From assembly GCA_026770585.1 (NCBI GenBank), contig MU646317.1, forward strand, positions 94,301-117,499: DNA of 23,199 nt, given 5' to 3'. Below, piece after piece: positions 1-22,923 of this stretch. Position 1 is the first letter of the stretch. Every line of letters begins with the position of its first letter. The stretch comes from Baffinella frigidus. Its lineage: Eukaryota > Cryptophyceae > Cryptomonadales > Baffinellaceae. The translations under genes and the position numbers were made by a program. The notes under the pieces were generated by a model. The model worked only from the letters and a program-made list of their open reading frames with translations. It did not search any database and was not told the origin of the DNA.

Positions 1-560
1 CGGGGGGGGGGGGGGGTGTAGTAACTTTCGGTGGCCGTTAATTGGTGGAGTAACTTTGTTGGCCCTGGCACACCGCAGGTGCACTACAAAATGTGCAACA
101 TGAAGACGGGACCGAAGGACGTATTTGCTGGCAATGAAAGTCACTGGTCATTCTAGTAATAGTAAAGAATTCGTGTAGTAGCTTTCGTTGGCCCCGATAG
201 GTGCACTACAAGGAGTGCAAGATGAACATGAAGACGGGACCCAAGGACGCTTTTGCGCCGAAGAAGCCGCAGGCCTTTCTAACTACCGTTATTTGTGTAG
301 TACCCATCGTTATTTTGTGTAGTAACTACCGTTATTTTTGTAGTAACTATCGTTATTTTGTGTGGTAACTTTCGTTATTTTGTGTAGTCACTATCGTTAT
401 TTGTGTGGTAATTTTCGTTATTTGTGTAGTAACTTTCGTTGGCCCCCCCCTGAATCAGGTGCACTACAAGGAGTGCAAGATGAAGACGGAGCCAAAGGAC
501 GCCCTAGCGCCCAAGAAGCCACAGGGCTTTCTGGCAACAATCTCAATGCCGCCTGGCATC
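1..560. repeat. Diverged repeat block with TGTAGTAACTTTCGTT units and three exon-like copies
   Basis: Tandem degenerate units GTGTAGTAACTTTCGTTATTT (about 20-24 bp) run from 290 to 440. Three copies of a longer segment starting GGTGCACTACAA lie at about 75-130, 194-290 and 457-545. The best copy opens after CAG and reads VHYKECKMKTEPKDALAPKK. KDxxAPKKP faintly recalls the start of an HMG box, but the rest does not follow. The run of 16 G at the very start may be a contig-end artefact. No gene is called here. Confidence 0.6.
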
Positions 561-722
561 GCAAGGTGCTTTCATCCGGGGGAACCTTTTTTTCTTTCAT
601 TTCCTGGCAACGAAAATTACCACACAAATGCTTTAATATTACTGGTCAGATCGAATTGTGTAGTAATTTTCGTTGCCAGGGAATGAAAGAAAAATAGATT
701 TCCCCGGATAAGCTTTCCCGCA
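561..722. repeat. Foldback (inverted-repeat) element 1
   Basis: Arms at about 561-627 and 655-722 are inverted complements over roughly 67 bp with some mismatches. Examples are CTGGCAACGAAAATTAC against GTAATTTTCGTTGCCAG and ATCCGGGGGAA against TTTCCCCGGAT. The 27-bp centre contains ATGCTTTAATATTACTGGTC. It shares its inner arm and centre with the element at 21842-21990. It resembles a MITE; no target-site duplication was clear. Confidence 0.85.
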
Positions 723-1023: not shown

Positions 1024-1509
1024 CACTAATATGGTTGTTTCTAGTTTTACACCCTGGAGATGGTTGCACCCGCCCCTCCGAAGCGCCCACGCGACCTGAA
1101 ACCCTACACCCTAAACCCTAGACCCTAAACCCTGAACCCCCTAACCCTCGAACCCCTAAACCCTGACCCCCTCTCCACAGCAAGCTGCCGCCACGGGAAC
1201 ATCCTCATCAACCCCAAACTCCAAACCCTCAACCACAAACCCTGAACCCCAAACCCCAAACCCCAAACCCCAAACCCTCAACCACAAACCCTAAACTCCA
1301 AACTCCAAACCCCAAACCCAAAAACCCCAAAGAGCGTGCAGGCGGCAGATTCTCGAAGATGCTCATCTTCGAAGACCGGGGCGGAGATAGAGACAACACG
1401 TGTGCCAATTTGCCTCACGTCAGGCCTCTCGAGATTTGCACCAGACTTGTGCGCGAAATGCGCGAAAAGTCGATAGCTCGTCGGCGAGTGACCCGCGGAC
1501 AAGCCGTGC

Positions 1510-1555: not shown

Positions 1556-1792
1556 GGCTTGGACACAGAGACCACCAATTTGAACAAGAAGAAAGAGACA
1601 AAGTATTTAAGGCTCACTCTCAATGATATCCGGTATCTTGTGAGATGTAACATCTCAAGATTTACTCACCCCCACCCCCTCTCCGCAGTGTGCTGCCGGC
1701 TGCCTCGAGAACATCCTCGATGGAGAAGACCGGGGATATACATCACGTCGAGCAACGGTTCAACCTCCACCACACCCTCCACCACTGCTACA

Positions 1793-2358: not shown

Positions 2359-2815
2359 GCGGGTGAAGTGTCCGCCAGAGGTGCCATCGCTGTTCGAATC
2401 GAACTACGTGCGGACGGCGCGATACACAAAGTTCAACTTTCTGCCGAAGAACCTCCTCCTCCAGGTTCCCCTCCTCCAAACCCCAAACCCCAAACCCTAA
2501 ACTCTAAACCCTTACCCCCAAACCCTAAACCCTAAAAAAAATTACACCGCTTCGTCGACTGCTTCTTCATCCTAATGTCTAATCCCTGATTCCCAACCCC
2601 CAAACCCTAACCCCCAAACCCCAAACCCCAAACACTAAACCCCAAACTCCAAACCCTGAATTAAAAAATTAAAATTAAAAATGAAAAATGAAAAATAATG
2701 AAAAATAGAAATATTTGATAATAATAAAAACCTCAACCCTAAACAGTTCCACCGGTTCGTCAACTGCTTCTTCCTGGTCGTGTCCATCCTCGCGTCCGTC
2801 TCCTCGATCTCCCCG
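2359..2815 (+). CDS. P4-ATPase exons 1-2: N-terminal signature and TM1
   Basis: Exon 1 is 2359-2464 (acceptor CCAG, donor GTTCCC) and exon 2 is 2747-2815 (acceptor ACAG, donor GTCCGT). Exon 1 reads [20 protein letters not shown] near its end, the P4 N-terminal block (usually RTxKYTxxxFLPKNLxEQF). Exon 2 continues [17 protein letters not shown], equivalent to FxRxANxYFLxxxxLQ, and forms TM1. The base at 2359 completes a codon begun in a missing upstream exon. Exon 2 has three decayed copies, one upstream and two downstream. Confidence 0.93.
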
Positions 2816-5800
2816 GTCCGTCTATTCTTATCTCGTCCGTTATTACTACCAACACGTCCTTATCTCGTCCATCTTTTGTATTGTCTCGTCCGTGTCGTGT
2901 CCGGCTTCTGTACTGTCGTGTCTCTGTCGTGTCCTTGCTGGTGTACTGTCGTGTCCTTGCGTTTGTACTGTCGTGTCCGTGCGTTTGTACTGGCGTGTCC
3001 CTGCCTTGGAGCAGCAATTGCTTCTTCCGGGTCGTCTCGATCCTCGCGTCCATCCCTTTGATCTCCCCGGTCGGTATTGTCCTTATCTCGGCCGTTATTA
3101 CTACCAGCACGTCCTTATCTGGTCTATTATTACTACCAACACGTCCTTGACTCGTGCTGCTGTTGCACTGTCTTGTCCCTGGGGTGGTACTGGTGGCGTG
3201 TCCTTCTTCCGGGTCGTGTCCATCCTCGCGTCCGACTCCTCCATCTTCCCGGTCTGTCTACCCTAAACCCTAAACCTCAACCCTAAACCCTAAGCCCTAA
3301 CTTCGACATCGCCGGTCCGTTATCTCGTCCGGCGTTAGCACTGCCCCGCCAGAATGCTCGAGGGAAACCGACGCCTTATCCACGACAGATCTGTTGTCGT
3401 TGACTTAAAATTCAAGGGGTTCCCCTTGAAATATGTCAAAAGTGGATGTTTCGAGTGCCCTGGCGTGGTGTCTCCTCGTCCTCATCTCGTCCGGATTCAG
3501 TACTGTCTTGTCCCTGACGTTTGTACTGTCGTGTCCATGGATGGTATGTCACTGTCTTGGAATGCCAACTGCTCTCCTCCTCGCCCTGCCTACCCTAACC
3601 CTCTCCGCTCCAGGTCAGGGCGCCTAAAACATAAACCATACACCATATACCATACACCATAAAACACAAACCATAAAAAATAAAAAAATAAAAAATAAAC
3701 CACAAACCGTACACCATAAACCATAAAACATAAAACATAAAAACTAAACAGTAAACCCCAACCCAGGTGGGGGCGCTAACGTTCTGGCTGCCAATCGGGC
3801 TGCTCCTCTCTGGCACGATGGTCAAGGTAAACCCTAACCCCCAAACCCTAAACCCTGAAACCTAAACCCTAAACCCCAAAGCCCAAACACCAAACACTAA
3901 ATACCAAACACCAAACACCAAACACCAAACCCATAACCCCAAACCCTGAACCCGAAACCGTACACCCTCAACCCGAAACCCGAAACCGCAGGACGCGTAC
4001 GAGGACTACCAGAGGCACAAGGCGGACGTCGAGGAGAACTCCCGCACCACGGAGGTCTAAATCCTACACCCTTCACCCTGCACTCTACACCCAAACGCCT
4101 AAACCCTAAATCCTGGACCCAGAACCCAAACCCCTAAACCCCCGAATCCTGCCTCTCGCTATCGCTCGAACCCTAAACTATCAACAATAAACCATAAACA
4201 AACAAAAAAACTATAAACCACAAACCCTAAACCCTGAACTCTGCGCCCGAACCCCTGAATCCTAAACCCTAAACCCTGAACCCTGAACCCTGAACCCTAA
4301 ACCCTAAACCCTAAACCCTAAGCCAGGTGTTCAACCCAACGCTCGGAGATTTCATGCAGGTCACGTGGCGAGAGGTACCTTCAAAACTCTAAACTCTAAA
4401 CCCTAAACCCTAAACCCTAAACCCTAAACCCAAAACCCTGTACCCTGAACCTTGAACCCTCGAAAGCCAGACACCAAACCCCTGAACCCTAAACCCTCGA
4501 AACCCTGAACCCTGAACCCTCGAAACCCCAAACCCAAACCCCTGAACCTTGAACCCTCGAAACCATCAACGTTAAACCATAACGCATCAACCCTAAACCC
4601 TCAACACTAACAACCTCTGAACCTGCAACACTCAATCAGGTGGCGGTGGGAAGCATCGTACGAGTCAACACGACGCACCCAGACACGACGCCTCTGATCC
4701 CAGCAGACCTGACCCTGCTGGCTTCTTCCGCGAAGGCGGGCACTTGCTTCCTTGAGACGGTGCACCCCCAACCCAAAACCCAAAACCCAAAAAAAAAAAA
4801 TCCTATCGCGAAACCCGAATCCCAGATCCCCAAACCCCATCGCGAAACCCGGAAACAGAAACCCGAAACCAGAGACCCGAAAACAGAAACCCGAACCCGA
4901 AAACAGAGACCCGAAAATAGAAACCCTGAACCGCAAAGCCTGAAGCCTACCGTAGGCGAACCTGGACGGGGAGACGAACCTCAAGATGCGCGAGAGCGCC
5001 TGACTCAGAATCCCTCAACCCCAAAACCTACCCCTAAACCCCAAGACAGAAACCCGGGCCCCTGAACCGTGAACAGTAAAAGCAAAAACAGAAATGCAAA
5101 CCCGTAAACCGCAAAGCGTAAACCAGGCGAACCTGGACGGGGAGACGAACCTCAAGATGCGCGAGAGCCCCTCCGAGACCCACCAGCGCCTCACCACCTT
5201 CCAGGTACCCTAAACCCTCCACCCTAAACCCTAAACACCCTGTTTCGGGTTGAGGGTGTACGGTTTCTTGTTTAGGGTGCAGTCGTGTTCAGGGTTCAGG
5301 GTTGAGGGTTTAGGGCCTACCTTCCAGGCCCCAGACTTGCAAGCATCCGTGCGCGTTACGGCTAGTGTGCCTAGTGTGCGCCCAATCCCGGTCTTAGCTT
5401 TCTCTATTTCCCCCGCTCCCTCACACCACCTTCAAAGACACCCGAAACCCGAAACCCGAAACCCGACCCTGGTCAGGCCCTCTCTCGCTCTATCTCTCTC
5501 TTTATCGCTCTCTCTATCTATCTCTATCTCTCTCTATCGCTCTCTATCGCTCTCTCTCTCTGTATATATATATACATATATATGTCCATACATGCGAAAC
5601 GCTCAACGCCTGAACGCTGACAGGAGGGGGCGTCGCACGGGGAGCTGAACAAGGCCAACGTTCGCAAGCTCGCCCTCAAGGTACACACAAACAAACCCTA
5701 AACCCTAAACCCTAAACCCTAAACCCTAAACCCCAAACCCTAAACCCTAAGAAACCCTAAACCCTAAACCCTAGACCCTAAACCCTAAACCCTAAACCCT

Positions 5801-8800
5801 AAACCCTAAACCCTAAACCTTGAACGCTCAACCCTCAACCCACGAACCCTAAACCCTGCGCCCTACAAAAACCTCAACCCGAAACCTCGAAAGCCGAAAC
5901 CCGAAAGGCTGACCGGTATCTGTGCAACAAGGTGGTGTGCAACCCGCCGGACGCGTTCCTGTACGACTTCCACGCGCGGATGGAGCACGACGCCATCGAT
6001 ATCCAGCTCGGGTGCAACCCCTACACTCGTTGCGCAACCTTCCAGCCCTGGGGGACTTTTCTGGGACCTGAAGCGGATCAAATCCCCTTTCGGGGCCTGA
6101 AATTTTTCCAAGTCTGAAAAGGGGGTGAGTGTAGAGGGGAGTTGATCCGCTTCAGAGTCCCAGAAAGCCCCCCAGGGCTGGAAGGTTCCGTAACTGACAC
6201 CGTACACCCTACACCCTACACCCTACACCCTACACCCTACACCCTACACCCTACACCCTACACCCTACACCCTACACCCTACACCCTAAACTCAGAACCC
6301 TAAACCCCAAAACCCAAACCCTTAACCCTTAACCCTACACCCTACACCCTACATCCTACACCCTAAACGCTGAACCCTAAACACCAAACACGAAACACCA
6401 AACGCTCAAGCCTCAAGCAGGGGGGGGCACCTGCTGCAGCGATCGACAAAGCTGCGCAACACCAAGTGGATCATTGGCGTCGCGGTACACCCTAAACCCT
6501 ACACCCTACACCCAACACCCTACACCCTACACCCTAAACCCTGATCCCTAAATACTCAACACTACGCTAAAAGCTGCGGAATACAAACTGGATCATTGGC
6601 GTCGCGGTACACCCTACAAGAGAACAAGGAGAAGATTGTTGCACAGAAAACGATGTATCGAGAGGTTAACAGAGACAAAGTTATGGGACACCAAGTGCAT
6701 CATTGGCGTCGCGGTACTGCCGCATTCCTGAGCCCTAAACCCTAAACCCTAAACCCTGTACCTTAAATCCTAAATCCTAAACCCTAAACCCTAAACCCTA
6801 AACCACAAACCCTAAACCAGGTTTATACGGGGTGTGAAACGACAATCCAAATTAACGTGACGGAGCCCCCGAACAAGTGCATTCTAAATTTAGTACCAGG
6901 AGGAAGCAATCCGCGCCCGGAACCCGACCCCCCGTCGTCCAAACCCTCAACTCCAATAAACCGTAAACAGGTTTACACGGGGTGCGAGACGAAGATCCAG
7001 ATGAACATGACGGAGCCTCCGAACAAGATCACCAACGTCGAGCGCCGCCTCAACTTCTGGATGTAATCTAAACCCCAAACCCCGAACCCCTCAACGCACA
7101 CGGATGTAACCCCGAAACCCGAAACCCGAAACCCCGAAATCCTGAAACCCACACCTCGTGTCACCCCTCAACACTCATCCCTAAACCCGAAACCCGAAAA
7201 CCCGTAAACCCGAAACCCGAAACCCTACACCTAAACCTCAAACCACACGCTTGTCACCCCTCAACACTAATCCCTACACCCCACACCTCCCTACACCCCA
7301 CACCCTTAACCCTAACCCACACCTCACGTCACCCCTGAACCCTAAAGCCTAAACCCCAAACCCTAAACCCTAAAGCCTAAACCCTAAAGCCTGAACCCTA
7401 ATACAGGCTGTACCTGTTCTTGGGGCTGATCGGAATGGCGCCATTCTAAGAACCAGTATATTCTGCTAGAACCCACTATGTTATGTCCAGAAATCAGTAT
7501 ATTATGTGTAGGAACCAGTACAAACGATAAAGCCTGAACCATAACGCAGGCTGTACCTGTTCTGGGGGCTGTTCGGAATGGCGCTCATCGGCGCCATCGG
7601 CAGCGTCGTCACGGTCCAACCCCTAGACCTTACACCCGAATCACCCTCCCCCTCATCATTGCGCTGTCAGCCACAAGTCTGCACCCTAATCCCTAAACCC
7701 AAACCTTAAATCTAAATCTTGAACCCTAACCCTAAACCCTAAACCCTAAACCCTAAACCCTGAACCCTAAACCCTAAACCGAAAACCGAACCCCCTTAAA
7801 CCAAAACCCCGAAACCGAAACCGAACCCCGAAACCCGAAAGCAGGTGATGGCCTCTTCAACCCCACTAATTCCTAAACCTGATGAATCTCATTGAAACCC
7901 CAACCCCTAACCCCTCGAATCCCGTATGGTACCTGACACCGCCTCCCCCAAACCTCACGTGGTGGTGACCTTCAACCTCTCTTCACTAATATTCCCTGAT
8001 ATTCCCTAGACCATAAACCCTAAACCCTAAACCCTAAACCCCAAACCCCAAACTCGACATCCTAAACCCGAAATGGTATACACCCGAAACAGGTGGTGGC
8101 GCCTGAGACGGGGAGCGTCTCGCGTGGTACCTTGCGCCCGAGCACCCGGCGGCGACCTTTCACCCCTATCTCAGTCGCAACTTTCAACGGGGTCCGTCAA
8201 CTCGGCTTTCGTGGTACTAATCTGTCCTTGAGATGGACGCAGGTCCAGAAAAGGACATTCCACACGCTTGGGAATTGGCTGACCCCGGAACCTGAACAAC
8301 AGGTAATCGCGCCCGAGACGGGGAGCGGAGCGTGGTACCTTGTGCCCGAGCAGCCGACGGCGACCTTCAATCCCGACCGGCCTGTCGTGGTGCCAACCCC
8401 TACCCTCGAATCCCGAAACCCGAATCCCGAAACCCGACCCACCCCACCCCAAACCCTTAGCCCCAACACACCCCACACCCCAAACCCCACACCCCAAACA
8501 CCCAACACCCAACACCCAACACCAAACCCCAAACCCAAAAACCCAAACCCCAAAACAAAAGGGGCTGCAGGGCTTCTTCACATTCCAGATCATGCTCCCA
8601 CTCTCGGCCCAGCGCCCGAAACCCGACCCCCCGTCGCCCAAACCCCACACCCCAATAAGCCCTCAACCCCAAACCCCAAGCCCCAATAACCCCTCAAACA
8701 GTTGGTCCTCCTGGGGTTCTTTTCGTTCCAGATTCTGCTCTCATTCTCTCCACCCGTCGCCCGAAACCCTGTAGCGCAAACGCTAAGCCCGAATAACCCC

Positions 8801-11778
8801 TGAACAGGTGGGGCTGCTGGGGTTCTTCTCGTTCCTGATCCTGCTCTCGCTCTTCATCCCGATTTCGCTCTACGTCACCCTCGAGTTTGTCAAGGCATTT
8901 CCCCAAACCCCAAACCCTTACCCCTGTACCCTGAATCTTAAACTCCGAACCCTAAATTCTAAACCCGAAACTCGAAACCTGAAACCCTGAACCCTAAACC
9001 GCCTCTCCCTGTAAAGCAACTCTCTTTAACCCTGCGCTAAACCTGAAACCATAAACCATAAACCATAAACCATAAACCATAAACCATAAACCCCAAACCC
9101 CAAACCCAGGCGTTCCTCGCGACCACAATCTGGGGAGATCGCGAGATGTGGGCGGCTGAGGTTCAACCCTAAACCCTAAACCCTAAACCCTGAACCCTGA
9201 ACCCTGAACCCTGAACCCTGAACCCTAAAACCTGAACCCTGAACCCTGAACCCTGAACCCTGAACCCTGAACCCAAAGCCCTCACAAAGGCGCTGCATCC
9301 CACACCCTACACCCCGGACCTTCAACCCTGAAACCCAAACCCCCAAACCCTTGTCCCTCAATCCTTCACCCTAAAACCCTAAACCCCAAACCTTGAACCC
9401 TCAACTGTCACTTTTCGAACCCTGGATCCCTAAACCCTAAACCCCAAACCCTAAACCCTAAACCCTAAACCCTAAACCCCAACCCCCCAAAAGAGGAGGA
9501 CATGCGAACGCTCCCGCGAACAAAGGGGTTCTGCGAGGAGCTTTTGCCAAATACTGAACATCGTTTTGTACACGAAACGACGCGACCACGAGTGCCGTGT
9601 TGTCCCGATTTCAAATTTTCACTTGAGCCATTGGAAATTAAGACTATTCCGGCCCAAAAGCTCTAACCCCTAAACCGAAATCAGGAGGACATGCGAACCC
9701 TCCCGCGCACGATGGGCCTCTGCGAGGAGCTGGGCCAAATCAATTACATCTTCTCAGACAAGTACACCCCACACCCCTCAACTCTCGGAGTGAAGACCCC
9801 AAAAGCGTTTGCGTCTCACCAATTGAGATCCTTTTCGCTCGAAAGTTGACGGATTTGTACCACGGATCCAGCATGTCAACTTAAGAATAGTCGGTCACGA
9901 GCGGAGCAGTGCGAGGCGCTGGGCCAGATCCACTACATCTTCTCGGACAAGTGCACCCTACACCCTAAACCCTAAACCCCAAACCCCAAACACGAAACCC
10001 CGAACCCTAAACCACATACCCCAAACCCTCAAACCCGAAATCAGGACGGGAGAGTTCACGCAGAACCCACACCCTAAACTCTCAAAGCCAAACACCAAAC
10101 ACGAAACACCAAGCCCCAAACACGAAACGCGAAAACAGGACGGGGACGCTGACGCAGAACCTCATGGAGTTCCGCAAGTGCTCCATCGCCGGGGTACGCC
10201 ACCCGAAACCCGAAACCCGAAACCCATGCCCCCTAAACCCTAAACCCTACACCCTAAACCCTAAACCCTAAACCCTAAACCCAACGAAACCCTAAACCCT
10301 GCACGAAACCCTAACCTCAGCGGAGTACGCCACCCTTTCTGCTAAAGCCTAGACATTGAACCCGAATGGCTGAAGCGCAAGGCCGAAAGCAGGTATCATA
10401 CGGGCGGGGGTACTGCGAGGTCGAGCGAGCGATCGCGCGCCTCAAGGGGCAGAAGCTCCCGCCAAACCCCCAGCCCCACGCGGGTCAGCCCCACACCCTC
10501 ATCCCAACCCCCAACTCCAGCACCCCAAACCCAACACCCCAACACCCCAAACCCCAACCCACAAACACCCTAAACCCTAAACCCTGAACCCTGAACCCTA
10601 CACCGTAAACCCTGCACGCAGGGATGGATTCGGCGTTCAACTTCGTGGACGAGCGGCTGGCGAACGGGGCCTGGCGACGCAGCGCTGATAAGGAGAACAT
10701 CCGCATGTTCCTCACCCACCTCGCGCTCAACCACACGGTCCAGGTGCGTGCAAACCCTATACCGTGAACCCTAAACTCCCCGGACCCTGAATTCTGAACT
10801 CTCTGGACGCGGAACACTGAACACTGAACCCTAAACCCTTGACCCCAAACCCCAAACCCTACACCCCAAACCCTACACCCTGAAGCCTGAAGCGGACACT
10901 GGCAAGCAGGTCGGGTACGGGCCCTCAGACGTGGAGGGGGATGGCGTCTTGCCGCAGTACCAGGCTGAGTCCCAGGTCCAAACCCGAACCCTAACCCCTC
11001 AACCCTACACCCCACACCCCACACCCCACACCCCAAACCCTAAACCCTAATCCTTGAAACCCTAAAACCCTAATCCCTATACCCCAGACCCCCCAAACCC
11101 GAAACCTGAACCCGAAACCCAAAACCCGAAACACTGATGCAGGATGAGTGGGCGTTCGTGCACGGCGCGCGCAACCTCGGTGTCTTCTTCAACAGGCCCG
11201 ACCCTCAGCCTTAAACCCTGAACCCTAAACCCTAAACCCTGAACCCTGAACCCTAAACCCTACACCCCAAACCGCAAACGGTAAACCCTAAACCCTGAAC
11301 CCTAAACCCTGGGCCCTACACCCCAAAACCCAAAGCGTAAACCCGAAGGGCTGAAGCAGGCGGGACGAGGCGCACCGGATCATGCTGCGCGTCGCTGGGG
11401 AGGGCGACAGGGTGGGGAAGGGCATCGACGAGATCTGGCAGGTTCTCAACGTCAACATCTTCGACAACACGCGCAAGCGCACCTCCGTCGTCGTGTCGAA
11501 CGGCGAGGTCGCATCTCTAACCTCAAATCCCGAATCCGCAAACCCGAATCCCAAAACCCGAATCCCAAAACCCGAATCCCAAAACCCGAATCCCAAAACC
11601 CGAATCCCCAAACCCCAAACCCGAATTCCGAAACCCGAAACCTGAATTCTGAATGCTGAAACCCCAAACCCCAAACCCCAAACCCCAAACCCCAAACCCC
11701 AACGCAGGGAGCGCTGATGCTGCTGGTCAAGGGCGCGGACTCATCGGTGCTGCCCTGAACCCTAAACCCCAAATAATA

Positions 11779-11820
<42 letters not shown>

Positions 11821-14800
11821 CTCCAAACGATAATCCCTGAACCTCGGTGCCCTTCGCTAAGCCCTAAACACTAGACCCTAAACCCTAAACCCTAAACCCT
11901 AAACCCTAAACCCTAAACCCCAAAAAACGAATGAAAATGAAAAATAAAATAAAATAAATAAACGATGAACCCTAACCCAGATGCTGCCGTTCGTGGTGAA
12001 GGATGCCTCGTACGAGGCTACGGAGAAGGACATCAACGAATTCTCTGACCAGGTCTGACCCTACGCCCGAAACCCTGAACCCTCAACGTTCAACCCTGCA
12101 ACCCGAAACTCTACACTCTAAACTCAAAACCCTAAACCCCAAACGCTAACCCCGAAAGCCTGACCCCTCAAACACCCGGCAGGGGCTGCGCACGCTGGTC
12201 TTCGCGGGCCGGATGCTGGAGCAGGTCTGAACCCCAAACTCTAAACACTAAACACTAAATACTCAACCCTAAACCCTAAACCCTAAACCCTAAACCCTAA
12301 ACCCTAAACCCTAAACCCCAACCCCCAAACTCCAAACCCTAAACCCTTAACTCTAAACCCTAAACCCTAAACCAGAAAGAGTACGATGAGTGGAACAAGC
12401 GCTTCCAGGATGCCAGCCTCCAGGTCACACCTAAACCCAGAAACCCAGAAACCCAGAAACCCAGAAACCCAGAAACCTAGAAACCCGAAAGCAAGACTAG
12501 GAGGTCAGCCTCCAGGTGACGAGCCCCCAAACGCTGAAACCCGAAATTCTCCTCGACCTTAAACCCCGAGTCCTTAACTCCAACTCCAAACCTTTAGGCC
12601 TAAACCCTGAATTCTCCTGAGGCCTGAACCGTAAACGCTAACCCCGCAAGCAGGCGTCGGGGCGGGAAGAGGCAATGCGCCTGCTGGCCTCTCAGCTGGA
12701 AGAGGCGCACACGGAGCTCGGCCGGTAACCCGCATCCGCCAAAATCGCTCAACCTCCCGCCTTGATTTGATCCACTTTGGACGGCCCCATCAAGACACCC
12801 GAAACCCTGCACCCGAAACCCGGGTTGGGTTTCGTAAGTTGCCGAGAGAGAAAAATGTACAACCCCGTCAACTTACCACCGCGCCAGAGTCTTGAAAGGG
12901 GTCGCCAAAAGTCAATTTTCCCTCAAGGCAGTGGCTTTCACAAGTCAACAAGCGCACTGAGATGCGCTTTCGATTGAATGGACCCCCTCGAATACTCTGG
13001 CGTGGTAACCGGGAAATCCGACCGCAGGGAAACGGCGCTGGTCGACGGGTCTGTCCCGACGCAGCGCATCCTCCGCCTGCACGGCGTCACCGCCCTCGAG
13101 GATAAGCTCCAGGTACCAAACGGGGGGGGCGTTTCGTACGAGCGCCTACTTTAGATTTTAAATAGTACCACGATGCACCCCTAAAACACTTTTGGGGGAG
13201 GATTCAGTAGCGGCGGAAGCCTGGGCTTGCACAGCGTCACCGCTCCCAAGGACAAACTCCAGGTACCAAACGGTCCCGACGATTAGTACGCACGCGTACA
13301 TTTAGATTTTAATTAGTACCACGATGCACCCCTAAAACCCTTTTGGGGGAGGATTCTAGTAGCAAATCCCTAACCCCGAATCCCCTAAACCCTCACCCCC
13401 AAACCCGAAGCCAGGAGAGGGTGGGGGGGTGCATCCCCCGACCCTCAACCCTGAAAAGTTGACGTTTTTGTACCAGAACCGTCAACTTTCACCAATGTTT
13501 TATTATTTCCTTGGCCAACTTCTCCGCACACTGCTCTAACCCTCAAAACCTCCCACACGAGAATGCTAAAGGGGCCTATTTAAAACTGATTTGCTTTTAA
13601 AAGTGGGCATTTGTGTAGTAACTTTCGTTGATTGGTCACGTAACTCTGCGAAATTAAAACAGTCGCGAGGTTGGAACACCCTTTCCTGGTACAAATATTT
13701 ACAACGCCACATGTAAATAGGATGCTCCAGCATTCTCGAGTGGTCTTGCTGGAGCGGGTGGGGGAGTGCATCGCGGGATCCGATCTGTAAAGCGACTCGT
13801 TTGTAATGCGACTCGTTTGTAAAGCCACACACCCGAAACCAGGAGCGGGTGGGGGAGTGCATCGCGGGATCTGTAAAGCGACTCGTTTGTAAAGCCACAA
13901 ACCCCGAAATCAGGAGAGGGTGAGGGAGTGCATCGCCATGATGAGAAAGTAACCCTCAAAACCTGTTGCAGGAGCGAGTGGGGGAGTGCATCGCACAGCT
14001 GGCGAAAGCGATGATCAAGATCTGGGTGCTCACGGGGGACAAGCTCGAGACCGCCGTCAACATCGGGTATCCACTTTTGCCAGTGTCCACAACTTTTGCC
14101 GTCCATAACTTTTGCCGTTGCTAACAACGTCCACATCGGGTATCCACTTTTGCCGTTGTTACCGTCCACATCCCGTGTGTTGACTTTCACCGTTGTATCG
14201 GTGCGGTTGTCTGAACCGAACCGAATCCAACCCCCAGCCCCTAAACCCCTAAACCCCCCACCTCTAACCCCTCAACCCCAAACCCTCAACCCCAAACCCT
14301 GAACCCCTAAACCCCAAACCCCAACCCCTAAACCCAAACCCTAAACCCCTAACTCTGAAACGGTGGACAGGTACGCAACGGCGCTGCTCTCGACAGAAAT
14401 GGAGCCATTGCTCCGCATCTGTACCCCCCAATCCCCAAACCCGAAACCCCAAACCCTAAATCCCAAACCCTAAACCCCAAACCCCAAACCTCAAACCTCA
14501 AACCTCAAACCCGAAACCAGGCCACGAAGATATCATGCGACCCGGGTCATCGTACCGCACGGCGACGGGAGTGGAGCAGTGTCTGGCAGGGGCGCTCGAC
14601 CACGCGGCCGACGGCGACATCGAACGTACCCCCCAAACCCTAACCCCTAACCCGTAAACCCTAAACCCCAAACCCCAAACCTTAAACCTTAAACCCTAAA
14701 CCCTAAACCGCCTCTCTCTGTAAAGCAACTCTCTCTCGACACTAAACCCTAACCCCTAAACCCCAAACCCTAAACCCTGAACCCTGAACCCTAACCCTCA

Positions 14801-17800
14801 CCCCAAACCCTTAGCCCTAAACCTTAAACCCCAAACCCCACACCCCACACCCCACACCCCAAACCCCAAACCCCAAAGCTCAAACCCGAAAGCAGGACTG
14901 GAGGCGACGTGCAACCAGGGGCGGAATCTGGTGGGGGGGGAGTCGTTGCTAGGCGGGCTGTGCGACCGGATGGCGGTAACCCCCAAACCCTAACCCCTCA
15001 ACCCAAACCCCTAAACAACGAACAAGATACACTGAACAATGAAAAACATACAAAAGCCAAAAAACAATAAAAAATAAAACAATAGACAATAAATAGTAAA
15101 TAATAAATGATAAATAATAAACAATAAACCGGCGGGGCGGACGACGGACACCGAAAGCCGAAAACCGAAACCCGAACGCAGGCGCTGCGAGTACGGGAGG
15201 GGGCGGGGCGCACGACCGAAACGAGGACCGAATTTCTGGTGATCGAGAGCAGGCTGCGCGAGGCCCTTCTCAAGGAACGCGTCCGACAGCGCATCGTCGA
15301 GCTCTGCGAGGTCCCTCATCAATTCACCAACTCTCTCGAACACACATATAGCCCCCCCCCAGCCCCAACGTATAGTGTGTGCCTCCCAGGCTCAGCCTGA
15401 CCCTAACACCCAAATCCCAAACCCCCACCGCCTCCCCCGCCTCTCCCTGGTGACATCAGTCGAGCGGCCGGGGGGCTGAGCGCTGGTCATCCCTGGGATA
15501 GCAGAACCCTATCCCTAGAGACCCTCTACCCCAACCCCCAACCCCCAACCCCCAGCCATGACGTTGCACTTGCAGGAACCCAGAAGGCTACACCCTCTCC
15601 CACCTGACGTCAGTCGAGCTCTGCGAGGGATGTGGGTCCCTCCAAGGTTATGAGCCTAGGTCACCTCCTCGAGGTGAGGTTCTCCTTGCTGACCCCCAAT
15701 GACTCCCTCAGGTGACATCAGTCGAGCGGCCGGGGGGCTGGGCGCTGGTCATCGACGGCCCGTGCCTCCGCGCGGTACACCCGAAACCCTACACCCTACA
15801 CCCTACACTCTACACCCTACACCCTACACTCTACACCCTACACCCTACACCCTACACCCTACACCCTACACCCTACACCCCAATCCCTAAACCCCTGCTC
15901 CGATAAACCCTGAACCCTCAACCCTAAACCATAAACCCTAGACCCTAAACGCCGGAGCCGAAACGGGTACAGGCGATGCAACCGGACCTGCGGCTGCACT
16001 TCCTGCAAGTGGGGCTGCGCTGCAAGGCGGTGCTCTGCGCGCGCGTCACCCCCTCTCAGAAGGCCCAGGTCCGTACACTACCCCTCAGAGTAAGGGGGTT
16101 AGGGATTAGGGATTAGGGTTTAGGGTTATGGAGGGGCCGGAGGCGCGGGTGTCAAGAAGAACCCTAACCCTAACCCCAAACCCTTAACCCCAAACCCTAA
16201 TCCCCAACCCCGAAACCAGGTGCTGCTCCTGGTCAAGGAGAACGTGCACGACCAGGTCTCCCAACCCTACACCCCAAACCCCAAACCTTAAACTGTGAAC
16301 CCTGAACCCTAAACTCTGAACCCTAAACCCTGAACCCTAAACCCTGAACCCTGAACCCTGAACCCTGAACCCTGAACCCTAAACCCTGAACCCCAAACTG
16401 CAAACCATAAACTATGAACCATCAACCCCAAACCCCAAATCCTAAACCCTCAACCCCGAAACCATAAACCATAAACCATAAACTCGAACCCCTCAACCCT
16501 GAACCCCAAACCCGAAACGCGAATCCAGGTGACGCTCGCCATCGGCGACGGGGCAAACGATGTCTCGATGATCCAGGTTTCAACCCTAAACCCGCCCATC
16601 ATTAAGGTTTGAATCCTAAATCCTGAGCCCTAAACCCCTAAAAATCCAAACCCAAAAACCCAAAACACAAAACACAAAACACAAAACCCAAAACCCAAAA
16701 CACAAATCCAAAAAAACCAAAACCAAAACCCAAAAACCAAAACCCAAAACCAAAACCCAAAACCTCAAGACCCAAAACCCAAAACCCAAAACCCAAAACC
16801 CAAAACCCAAAACCCAAAACCCAAAACTCTCAGGGCAGGCGGCGCGCGTGCCTGAGAACCTGATCTCATGCTCACAACCTGCTCCGATAAACCTTAAACC
16901 CTAAAGCGCTACGCCCCAAAACGCCTACAGGCGGCACACGTGGGTATCGGGATCCGGGGGAAAGAGGGGCAACAAGCCGTGCTGGCCTCGGACTATGCCC
17001 TCCCGCGCTTCGCCTATTTGGAACGGTACACCCTAAACCCAAAACCTTAAACCTTAAACCCTAAAACCCAAACCCTAAACCCTAAACTGTAAAGAACCCC
17101 TCTCTAAACCCGAAACCCTGAACCCTGAACCTGAAACCCGAAATCATGAGACACGAAAGCTGACACCTGACACCCTGAACCTGAAACCTGAAGCCCGAAC
17201 GCTGAAACCCGAAGCCCTGAATCCTTGCCCCTAACCCGAAACCACACGCAGGTTGCTGCTGGTCCACGGGCGATGGGACTACAACAGAATCGGGACAATG
17301 GTTTGCTACTTCTTCTACAAGGCGAACGTCATGTCTCTCACTCTCCTGTGGTACACCCGAAAAGCTCAACCCTAAACGCCTGCTCCTCAACCCTGAACCC
17401 TGAACCCTACACCCCTGAACCCTCAACCCTCAACCCGTGTCTCTCTCACCCTTCTCTGGTGCGCGCCCTCGCCACCCCCACGTCTGGTGCGCGCCCTCGC
17501 CACCCCCACGCAGAACGCTACAGGGAACACCTTCGAACCGGGGTTGGATCCTTTTCTTGGTTTTGCCCGGGGATGGTCACGTTACCACAGAGCGGACTTC
17601 GAAGAGATTTTGAATAACCCGTAGGGACATATGGGGGTTCCTACGGATAAGGTAACGGAAACTCGGCCCGATTTGGGCCGAAAATCCCTTCGTAGCCCGC
17701 TGTGTGGGATGGTCACGTTACTTGCACGGATATTCGGGAATCGGGACCATGATGTGCCACTTCTTCTACAAGGCCATCGGCATGTCGCTTGCCCTCCTCT

Positions 17801-20800
17801 GGTACACCCTACAAGCTCAACCCTAAATGCCTTCTCCTCAACCCTGAACCCTGAACCCTCCACCCCTAAACCCTAAACCCTAAACCCTAAACCCTAAACC
17901 CTAAACCCTAAACCCTGACCCCTAAACCCCTACACCCTAAATTCCCAAACCCCAAACGCTAAGCCGAAAGCCTCAAGCAGGTACGGATTCGACAACGCCT
18001 TCTCCGCCCAGCCGCTCTACGACGACGGTTACCAGGTCTCCCCCAAACCCCAGACCCTCAACCATAAACCCTAAACCCTAAACCCTAAACCCTAAACCCC
18101 AAACCCTAAACCATATCCCCAAACCGCAAACCGCAAAGCGCAAAGGGCAAACCGCAAACCCGGACGCAGGCGCTGTATTCGGTGATCTTCACGGCGACGC
18201 CCTGCATGTTTTTCGCGATCCTCGACCGCGACATCGAGGTATACCCTAAACCCTAAATACTAAATACTAAATACTAAATACTAGATACTAAGCCAGGTCT
18301 CCGTGCTTTACAATAAATGCCTCACACAACCCCTGTCCCCCCTAAACCCTCAATCCTACACCCTAAACCCTACACGCTATCACCTAAAATTCTAAAACTG
18401 GGACATCGAGGCAAGCCCTCGTCTCGCTCAGCCCTAAATGCTACAGGGGTTAATCCCTCAACACCAAAACAGGCGGGACGTCCTGCGCTCACACCCAGAG
18501 CTATACATGTACTCCACGGGACAGAACAACCTCATTTTAACATACGACCGTCTTATGATCGCAGATGACCCCCTTATTATCACGCGACGCCGTCAGCCGA
18601 CCCCCTTACATATCCGCGACCCCCGGATTTCTTCTGACGGTGTAGTAAAAACGGCCGTCTATTTTTACCCAGGCGGACGTGCTGCGCTCGCACCCGGAGC
18701 TGTATTCCACGGGGCAGAACAACCTCGTGTTGAACATACGACCGCCTTATTAATCGCAGATGACCCCCTTATTATATACAGCTGACCCACTTAAATACCC
18801 GAGACCCCCATTTTTTCTGCTGACGGTGTAGTAAAACTGTCCGTCTATTGTTGGGCAGGCGGATGTGCTGCGCTCGCACCCGGAGCTGTATTCCACGGGG
18901 CAGAACAACCTCATGTTCTCTGCGCATCGATACTTCATCTTTGTCTTCGGTACACCCTAAACCCTAAACCCTAAACCCTAAACCCTAAACCCTAAACCCT
19001 AAACCCTAAACCCTTGACCCCTACACCCTGAACACTACAAATCTACTCCACTAGCCAGAACAACCGATTCGCACCCCGTACACGCTAATCCCTAAACCCT
19101 ACACCCTAAACCCTAAACCCTAAATCCTGAGACTCCAAACCTACAGTCAACCATGAAGCCAAAACCCAAAACCCAAAACCTAATCCCGAATCGTCAAACC
19201 TAAACCGAAACACCTACCTAAACCCCGAAACCACTAACCCCAAAACACCTAAACCCCGAAACCCGAAACCACTAACCCCGAAACCCCAAACCCCAAACCC
19301 TAAAACCTAAAACCCAAACCCCAGGGTCGCTGTTCCACTCTGCGATGCTCTACTACCTCTCGATCGAGACGGTCGACCCTACACCCTACACCCCATACCC
19401 CACACCCCAAACCCTCAACCCTGCACCCTACACCCTACACCCTAAGCACTTCTCCCTCAACCCTAAACCCTAAAAGCTAAACCCTAAATTCTCATCCCGA
19501 AACCCGAAAACCAAAAACCTAAACTCTAAACTCTAAACCCGAAACCCGAAACCCGAAGCCCGAAACCTCAAACCCTTCTCCCAAAACCTTAAACCGTAAA
19601 ACCTAAACCCGAAACCCGGAACCAGATCGACCGGAACGTTGGAAACGTGGACGGCAAGTCCTTCGGCATGTGGTCTGCACCCTAAATACTAAATACTAAA
19701 CATTAAACCCTGAACATCAAACCCTGAACACTAATCACTAATCACTAAATTCCACACCCACACCCCTAAACCATAAATCCCAACCCCAAACCCCGAAATC
19801 CTAAACCCAAAATCCAAAATCCAAAACCCAAAACCCAAAACCCTCCACTCCAAACCCAAAACCCTCAACCCTAAAACCCAAACCCTAAACCCTAAACCCA
19901 AACCCAGGTCAATGGGAACGATCACGATGACCAACGTCATCACGACGGCCGCGGTACTTTTGGGGTTTTGGCCACTTTTGGGTTTCTGGGGTTCAGGGTT
20001 CAGGGTTCAGGGTTCAGGGTTGGGTTGAGGGCTTAGGGTTTAGGGTTTACAGTCCTGGCCCGCTGCAGCATCTCTTACTCCCGCCCTAGGGGGGCTGCGC
20101 CCCTGGGAAGGCGGCATCGGCCCCGAAACCTGAAACTCTGAACCCAACCCCCGACATTGTTCACCTGAAGCCCTCTCCCGTCGTTGATTCGACCTTTCAA
20201 TTTCAGTTGGGAGCATCACAAATCTGTTGTGTATCTTAAGACTTCCAACGCCCAAGATAAAGATGGATGTGCTATTTTAGGAATATAAACAAGGTTGAGA
20301 TGAGTGTATTTACCCACAGATTCTTTTACGCTCCGAGATTGATTTCTCGCTCGCTCCCACTCTCGAAAACTTACGTTTCGACAACTTAGGCTGGTAGCCA
20401 ACCCTAAACCCTAAACACTGAACAATTTAAGTTAATTTAATTCGATTCAAACGATTTAATTTAATTCAAATCCGAAACAGTTGGTCATGTGCCTCCTCAC
20501 AAAATCGTGGTGCTTCTTCCCCTGGGGTGTTGGCTTTCAGGGGTTTGGGTATTAACCAAGTCGTTGTGCAGACCCCTACACACTAGACAAAAAATAATTA
20601 AAAATAATAAATAATTAACCAAGTGGTGATGTGCCTGTTGACACCACGTGGTCGTGGTGCTTCTCCCACTGGAGGGGTATACCGTTTTGGGGTTAGATAT
20701 TTTCCAGAGAGTTTACGGGGTTGGATAACAACCAAGCCGAGCTGCAAAACCACAAACCCCAAACCCCAAACAGGTCGTGATGTGCACTAGACATTACATA

Positions 20801-22923: not shown

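Follow-up and report, generated by a model that had tools for sequence, protein, structure and literature searches.

The question raised by this locus is whether the introns of a gene are being filled with broken copies of its own exons and, if so, by what process. Conclusions on how introns grow or are gained mostly rest on isolated, rare cases. An earlier note on the gene, which is from the cold-water cryptophyte alga Baffinella frigidus, claimed that at least 18 of its introns hold partial copies, or ghosts, of the adjoining exon. The window, meaning the whole stretch of DNA that was analysed, has 23,199 nucleotides (C15:94301-117499, contig MU646317.1) and comes from an assembly of 382,457,362 bases in 1364 contigs. 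For the Baffinella genome, 534.5 Mbp, a repeat share of 41.1% and a BUSCO completeness of 72.3% have been published, in a paper whose main text uses the word “intron” 0 times (PMC9756366).

The gene in the window is a P4-ATPase (phospholipid flippase) of 53 exons on the plus strand (480-22923). Translation of its coding sequence yields protein P0001 over 1302 of 1302 residues. This is an MMETSP transcriptome protein, identified as a P4-ATPase by a match to PF16212 and to flippases of the PDB, and its nearest named relatives are from Guillardia and another cryptophyte. Exon ends were read from the sequence, with two starts adjusted. The exons numbered 1-51 in the earlier note were correct, and that numbering is retained; two 5′ exons had been missed and are called the first and second exon here. 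The median exon has 71 bases and the median intron 272.5. The 52 introns have 50 GT and two GC donors, and all 52 acceptors are AG; of the 52 internal exons, 21 start with GT. A second transcriptome protein, P0003, equals P0001 over its first half and continues as a different P4-ATPase. It may be a chimera made in transcript assembly, a paralogue that has recombined or the result of gene conversion.

Each exon was compared with each intron or flank by local alignment of the exon letters only, a score of at least 36 being taken as a strict match. This threshold was picked after the scores of non-adjacent pairs in the window were seen to stop at 34, and it was then left unchanged for two other genes. 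Strict matches occur in 18 of the 106 adjacent pairs of exon and flanking sequence, as against 0 of 2756 non-adjacent pairs and 0 on the reverse strand. Dinucleotide-shuffled exons (100 sets) give 0.0 matches per set at 36, with a top score of 31. The similarity thus survives both kinds of control. At a score of 24 the contrast is weaker, as expected: 24 of the 106 adjacent pairs match, and so do 17 of the 2756 non-adjacent ones. The exon copies in the adjoining introns are real, and the original observation is confirmed.

Strict matches are found in 15 of the 52 introns and in the 5′ flank, and the figure of at least 18 introns is reached (18 of 52) with the weaker matches included. The new first exon is strictly confirmed, and so are exons 2, 7, 10, 11, 12, 13, 14, 16 (on both sides), 28, 29, 34, 39, 42, 46 and 49; copies of the new second exon and of exons 17, 26 and 33 are weak but plausible. 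The list in the earlier note stands, exon 17 as a weak case, with the exception of exon 51. The letters of that exon score only 13 in its intron, and the likeness is that of an element common to introns 48 and 50, at 22055-22170 and 22708-22823. For exon 42, two of the three claimed copies are clear and the third scores only 24. The stop-bearing, near-identical copy of exon 7 was borne out (Table 1).

In total, 38 alignments less three (exon 4 downstream, exon 7 downstream and exon 33 upstream, which are simple-repeat or non-edge) leave 35 copies in the window. Of these, 24 lie upstream of their exon and begin at its 5′ edge, and the 11 that lie downstream extend to its 3′ edge, in line with the claim that most copies are cut at the exon’s start with its acceptor. 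The duplicated exon parts measure 12-65 bases (median 38). Copies and exons differ at 2% to 25% of exon bases, a range that fits a continuing process as was suggested. In the flanks, 510 of 588 aligned intron bases are identical, partly within simple repeats.

Table 1. Exons at the ends of the P4-ATPase gene, exon-edge copies (ghosts) and a shared intron element; positions are those of the window.
Feature	Position	Strand	Identity or remark
First exon	480-565	+	P4-ATPase gene
Second exon	1689-1757	+	P4-ATPase gene
Exon 1	2359-2464	+	P4-ATPase gene
Exon 51, last	22846-22923	+	P4-ATPase gene
First-exon ghost, 5′ side + upstream flank	76-121	+	39/46
First-exon ghost, 5′ side + upstream flank	199-280	+	67/82; exon-only score 61
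Second-exon ghost, weak, 5′ edge	1160-1206	+	39/51
Exon 2 ghost, 5′ edge, upstream	2520-2568	+	40/49
Exon 2 ghost, 3′ edge with donor, downstream	3015-3100	+	72/86
Exon 2 ghost, 3′ edge with donor	3203-3260	+	53/58
Exon 2 ghost, weak, 3′ edge	3303-3331	+	26/36
Exon 7 ghost, 5′ edge	4921-5001	+	45/46 exon bases alike, then TGA
Exon 10 ghost, 3′ edge with donor	6570-6616	+	43/47
Exon 10 ghost, 3′ edge with donor	6674-6713	+	alignment
Exon 11 ghost, 5′ edge with acceptor	6793-6877	+	72/88
Exon 12 ghost, 5′ edge with acceptor	7379-7444	+	59/67
Exon 13 ghost, 5′ edge with acceptor	8088-8159	+	61/72
Exon 14 ghost, 5′ edge	8546-8604	+	46/59
Exon 14 ghost, 5′ edge with acceptor	8671-8756	+	70/87
Exon 16 ghost, 5′ edge, upstream	9472-9552	+	64/81
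Exon 16 ghost, 3′ edge with donor, downstream	9910-9973	+	55/65
Exon 17 ghost, weak, 5′ edge	10019-10067	+	41/50; exon-only score 24
Exon 26 ghost, weak, 3′ edge	12499-12546	+	38/49
Exon 28 ghost, 3′ edge + following intron	13225-13362	+	84.8% over 138; 150-base period
Exon 29 ghost, 5′ edge	13388-13435	+	36/48
Exon 29 ghost, 5′ edge	13746-13774	+	27/29
Exon 29 ghost, 5′ edge with acceptor	13840-13865	+	25/26; 71-base tandem unit
Exon 29 ghost, 5′ edge with acceptor	13911-13936	+	23/26; 71-base tandem unit
Exon 29 ghost, 3′ edge with donor	14128-14154	+	26/27
Exon 34 ghost, 5′ edge	15443-15491	+	48/51
Exon 34 ghost, weak, 5′ edge	15605-15619	+	14/15
Exon 33 ghost, weak, 3′ edge	15613-15628	+	16/16
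Exon 39 ghost, 3′ edge with donor + following intron	17738-17831	+	79/94
Exon 42 ghost, 5′ edge with acceptor	18470-18538	+	55/69
Exon 42 ghost, 5′ edge with acceptor, spacer co-duplicated	18643-18731	+	80/89; unit-to-unit alignment 256 bases
Exon 46 ghost, 5′ edge with acceptor	20467-20528	+	53/62
Exon 46 ghost, 5′ edge	20620-20672	+	40/53
Exon 46 ghost, 5′ edge with acceptor	20747-20785	+	33/39
Exon 49 ghost, 5′ edge with acceptor	22017-22054	+	31/38
Spacer from exon 49 ghost to exon 49 = element common to introns 48/50	22055-22192, 22708-22845	+	84.9% over 139

The same pattern in unrelated genes had been named as the support to look for, and it is present. After training on the window, where it placed 46 of the 53 exons exactly among 67 predictions, a gene finder run on C15 found the genes for threonine synthase and serine palmitoyltransferase. 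From the end of the P4-ATPase gene it is 40 and 67 kb to their downstream starts. Their exon maps were fixed by the transcript protein P0121 and by protein P0241, respectively. P0121 is identical over the mapped part (residues 66-413), and the serine palmitoyltransferase model equals the Baffinella frigidus protein P0241 over 689 of 689 residues. Genes near by on C15 likewise have matches among proteins named Baffinella frigidus. For threonine synthase, the last exon of the transcript was swapped for a downstream copy running into the conserved C-terminus, and one exon was added. These changes, based on the gene finder and homology and not on a transcript, move the count of adjacent pairs with strict matches from 9 of 26 to 12 of 28. 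Serine palmitoyltransferase has 12 of 34, and non-adjacent pairs within both genes have 0 of 454. With the three genes pooled, strict matches are seen in 41 of 166 adjacent pairs, in 0 of 6972 non-adjacent pairs (0 of 3106 within the same gene, 0 of 3866 between genes) and in none on the reverse strand; 34 of 86 exons and 33 of 83 introns have a strict copy. The sample is small and partly linked, as it consists of three genes, all on C15, and two paralogue pieces elsewhere.

Outside the window, about 47 kb of C15 were compared. Repeat pairs less than 600 bases apart are 65 direct versus 4 inverted, and those more than 2000 bases apart are 76 direct versus 64 inverted. A P4-ATPase paralogue on contig C668 has 16 direct versus 1 inverted repeat pairs in 3.1 kb, and its WVLTGD exon region is present three times among the direct repeats. 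The paralogue piece on contig C93 (L023) has two direct pairs only, which is weaker support than that from C668. In one case in this piece, noted by eye, an intron seems to start with GCGAGACC (~1918-1937) and the next exon with GCGAAACC (~2132-2145). This seems to be the pattern expected from intron gain by small tandem duplication.

The copies have a strict polarity. The 55 strict copies in the three genes comprise 29 upstream copies of a 5′ edge, 21 downstream copies of a 3′ edge, four internal pieces and one whole exon, so that 50 reach an exon edge. Copies of the wrong polarity, i.e., a 3′ edge upstream or a 5′ edge downstream, number 0 of 55. The whole-exon copy is of threonine synthase exon 11, which has 54 bases, a multiple of three; it lies downstream, in the region of C15:162400-162717, and is possibly an alternative exon in the making.

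Copies that are local, directly oriented, polarised and divergent to different degrees are thus present in unrelated genes, and they probably arise by recurrent local direct (tandem) duplication across exon–intron borders. We infer tandem duplication as the founding event, together with selection against whole-exon copies. Short stretches of DNA would duplicate locally, directly and repeatedly, with end-to-end offsets of approximately 60-560 bases in the window. If an exon holds one breakpoint and the intron next to that part of it holds the other, an intact exon and a half exon with its splice site would be left. With such breakpoints the start-half must lie upstream and the end-half downstream, matching the polarity observed. 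As splicing of the intact exon goes on, the duplications would survive. Whole-exon copies would tend to enter the message. They are rare here, and how this compares with chance turns on how long the duplicated unit is. A half exon has no partner splice site and would mostly be ignored, probably through exon definition, so that its splice site would decay almost neutrally. Later duplications, MITE-like insertions and arrays of telomere-like heptamers would then bury it. Candidate molecular causes are slippage, paired nicks with fill-in, and end joining.

A head-to-tail duplication of intron and exon edge should leave a further copy of the ghost-to-exon spacer on the far side of the ghost. Such recurrence is found in 18 of 53 testable spacers (over most of the spacer in 7, partly in 11) and in 6 of 2400 control pairs. 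Four internal cases among the 39 rows for threonine synthase and serine palmitoyltransferase were dropped from the spacer lists, as were three of 70 spacers, for being shorter than 15 bases. Clear tandem cases are exon 28 (138 of a 150-base period), the second copy of exon 42, serine palmitoyltransferase exon 13 and a fresh-looking 25-base unit over the donor of threonine synthase exon 3, repeated head to tail. As introns change fast and take up MITE-like elements, partial loss of the tandem signature is expected. In the 35 spacers without it, duplication with inserted filler, or insertion with a long target-site duplication, is still a live rival.

The latter proposal is that a mobile element or filler enters at a widely staggered break near an exon border, and that fill-in of the overhangs doubles the exon edge on both sides. 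It would explain the 35 spacers just mentioned, and homology often ends 3-9 bases from the ghost acceptor (e.g., exons 13, 34, 42 and 49). Dispersed elements make up some of the spacers: that of exon 49 is common to intron 50, and 11 of the 53 spacers are copied elsewhere, one of them (second exon) being a plain dinucleotide run. The remaining 42 have no copy elsewhere in the sequence compared, and the 18 recurring spacers behave as in a tandem array. Terminal-repeat elements of other genomes make short duplications of fixed length. The duplicated exon parts here vary from 12 to 65 bases, whereas introner target duplications have 3-9 (PMC9860276). Insertion with a long target-site duplication is accordingly judged unlikely, though worth keeping in view. 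A telomere filler, in which telomerase or CST adds heptamers at breaks by which exon edges are doubled too, was also considered and dropped as the main reading, as 2425 of 8590 spacer bases are telomere-like compared to 14390 of 33290 in introns overall.

On this reading, ghosts would mostly be skipped in splicing. P0001 and P0241 contain none of the copies. P0121 splices into the upstream ghost of threonine synthase exon 14 (164438 on), after which the intron is read to a stop; the downstream copy (164624-164711) runs on into the conserved C-terminus. The use of a ghost here, with loss of the protein’s end, indicates that ghosts are not fully ignored. A new spliced intron bounded by the copy’s own donor and acceptor is seen in neither P0001 nor P0241, and the P0121 ghost is read through. 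Exon definition would be the usual shield against half exons. The public model of threonine synthase, P0122, differs from the transcript protein at both ends.

It might be argued that the copies are functional, being kept as mutually exclusive or otherwise alternative exons, as one copy is a whole exon and one transcript uses a ghost. This is very improbable, since one exon end is missing in 54 of the 55 copies, the ghost-using transcript ends early, and P0001 and P0241 use none.

The differences between copy and exon are distributed unevenly over codon positions 1, 2 and 3 (72, 57 and 151 of 280; rates 0.085, 0.067 and 0.178). The excess at third positions (p 2e-12 versus equal shares) has the same direction in all three genes, indicating that the exons are under selection while the copies drift. 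This counts against sequencing or assembly error. Misjoined reads or haplotypes could give false repeats in a genome as repeat-rich as this one, and such an artefact is scarcely conceivable given the third-position bias, the edge-limited and directional character of 50 of the 55 copies, and the threonine synthase ghost sequence contained in an independent transcriptome protein. As for the splice sites, AG is kept in 22 of 29 ghost acceptors and GT or GC in 21 of 22 ghost donors. Neutral decay at the rate of positions 1 and 2 would leave approximately 85%, and retention near this value gives no sign of strong selection to remove ghost sites.

The proposal that the introns are copies of mobile intron-making elements (introners) and the ghosts their target duplications has in its favour the element of introns 48 and 50, which ends at the acceptor, and is next to untenable because, simple repeats aside, the window introns otherwise share only a short motif (introns 14 and 49, also 31), the duplicated exon parts have a median of 38 bases, and likeness of intron start to next exon start is weak (108 matches versus 95.6 expected, p 0.054), with none of intron end to exon end (p 0.58). 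By the same counts, intron gain by a duplicated AGGT was left without clear support.

Several further features of the introns were noted. In both intron 48 and intron 50, the common element stops exactly at the acceptor, and it is a possible introner-like insert. MITE-like fold-back elements lie in introns and the 5′ region (574-709 and 6029-6194, both with inverted repeats, 21840-21990 and ~12842-13015). Some of them have related pieces at other places on C15, where part of the intron 16 spacer also finds 12 further matches. A motif around GTAAAGCAACTCTCTCT is found in three introns (9001-9027, 14708-14736 and 22314-22340), with 0 expected by chance. Telomere-like heptamers on the sense strand of introns are 348 CCCTAAA versus 6 TTTAGGG over the three genes, L049 and L023, one of these five genes or pieces being encoded on its contig’s minus strand; in the window they occur in introns throughout 566-22845. 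Introns are depleted in AG (1250 versus 1669 expected); as both AG and GT are absent from CCCTAAA repeats, there may be selection against the opposite orientation. Viral contigs gave no match to a MITE end, an intron-start motif, the protein or the element of introns 48 and 50, nor did genome contigs to the intron-start motif or plasmids to an exon.

The first reading of the locus is supported. How far it extends is a more tentative matter. It is possible, if somewhat doubtful, that most multi-exon genes of the alga are under continuing border-crossing local duplication through one repair route at staggered breaks. Their introns would then consist largely of exon-edge copies, mobile elements and telomere-like repeats, exon definition would hide the half exons, and occasional use of ghosts would supply new splice forms, exons and introns.

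About four in ten exons of the three genes (34 of 86) have copies that form a dated series, their divergence running from close to zero up to a quarter. One genome could thus serve to measure how often border-crossing duplications occur, where they break and what becomes of them. As a natural experiment on exon definition in a protist, there are dozens of half exons that keep their splice sites intact and are mostly skipped. Gene predictors will be misled, the P0122 model being an example, and the published completeness is only 72.3% (PMC9756366).

Internal duplications and their experimental counterparts have reportedly been treated by Gao and Lynch and by Hellsten and others. The earlier note named no other system with edge copies of so many exons of one gene. 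Single border-crossing duplications are known (PMC4974935; PMC12343006), and the open-access literature searched yielded no account of copied exon edges in a cryptophyte, or of such a density. In a potato RdRp gene, one tandem genomic duplication over an intron–exon border is reported to have given a spliced new intron and an exon copy (PMC4974935). Here there are many events per gene, and the truncated copies are spliced out inside a longer intron. Exonize reports full-exon duplications in ~4-7% of vertebrate genes and generally fewer events in lower eukaryotes; its classes likewise include exon copies within introns, recognised as possible degenerate exons (PMC12343006). By comparison, 33 of 83 introns here have a strict copy, almost always truncated at one edge.

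With tandem duplicated, mutually exclusive exons, too, one gene has copies of an exon side by side (PMC9741552; PMC9013439). Those are complete and used as alternatives (PMC9741552), whereas 54 of the 55 copies here are incomplete and one is complete. Introners are described as near-identical inserts with target duplications of 3-9 bases (PMC9860276). They resemble the present case in bringing mobile sequence into introns, here the one element common to introns 48 and 50, and differ in that 12-65 bases of exon edge are duplicated here and the spacers mostly differ. Fill-in by CST and Pol alpha-primase at staggered breaks produces small tandem duplications in mammalian cells (PMC8355091). It is a known route to short direct duplications and could supply such a mutation spectrum. 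Since single border-crossing duplications have been described before, the kind of event is known; its density looks new.
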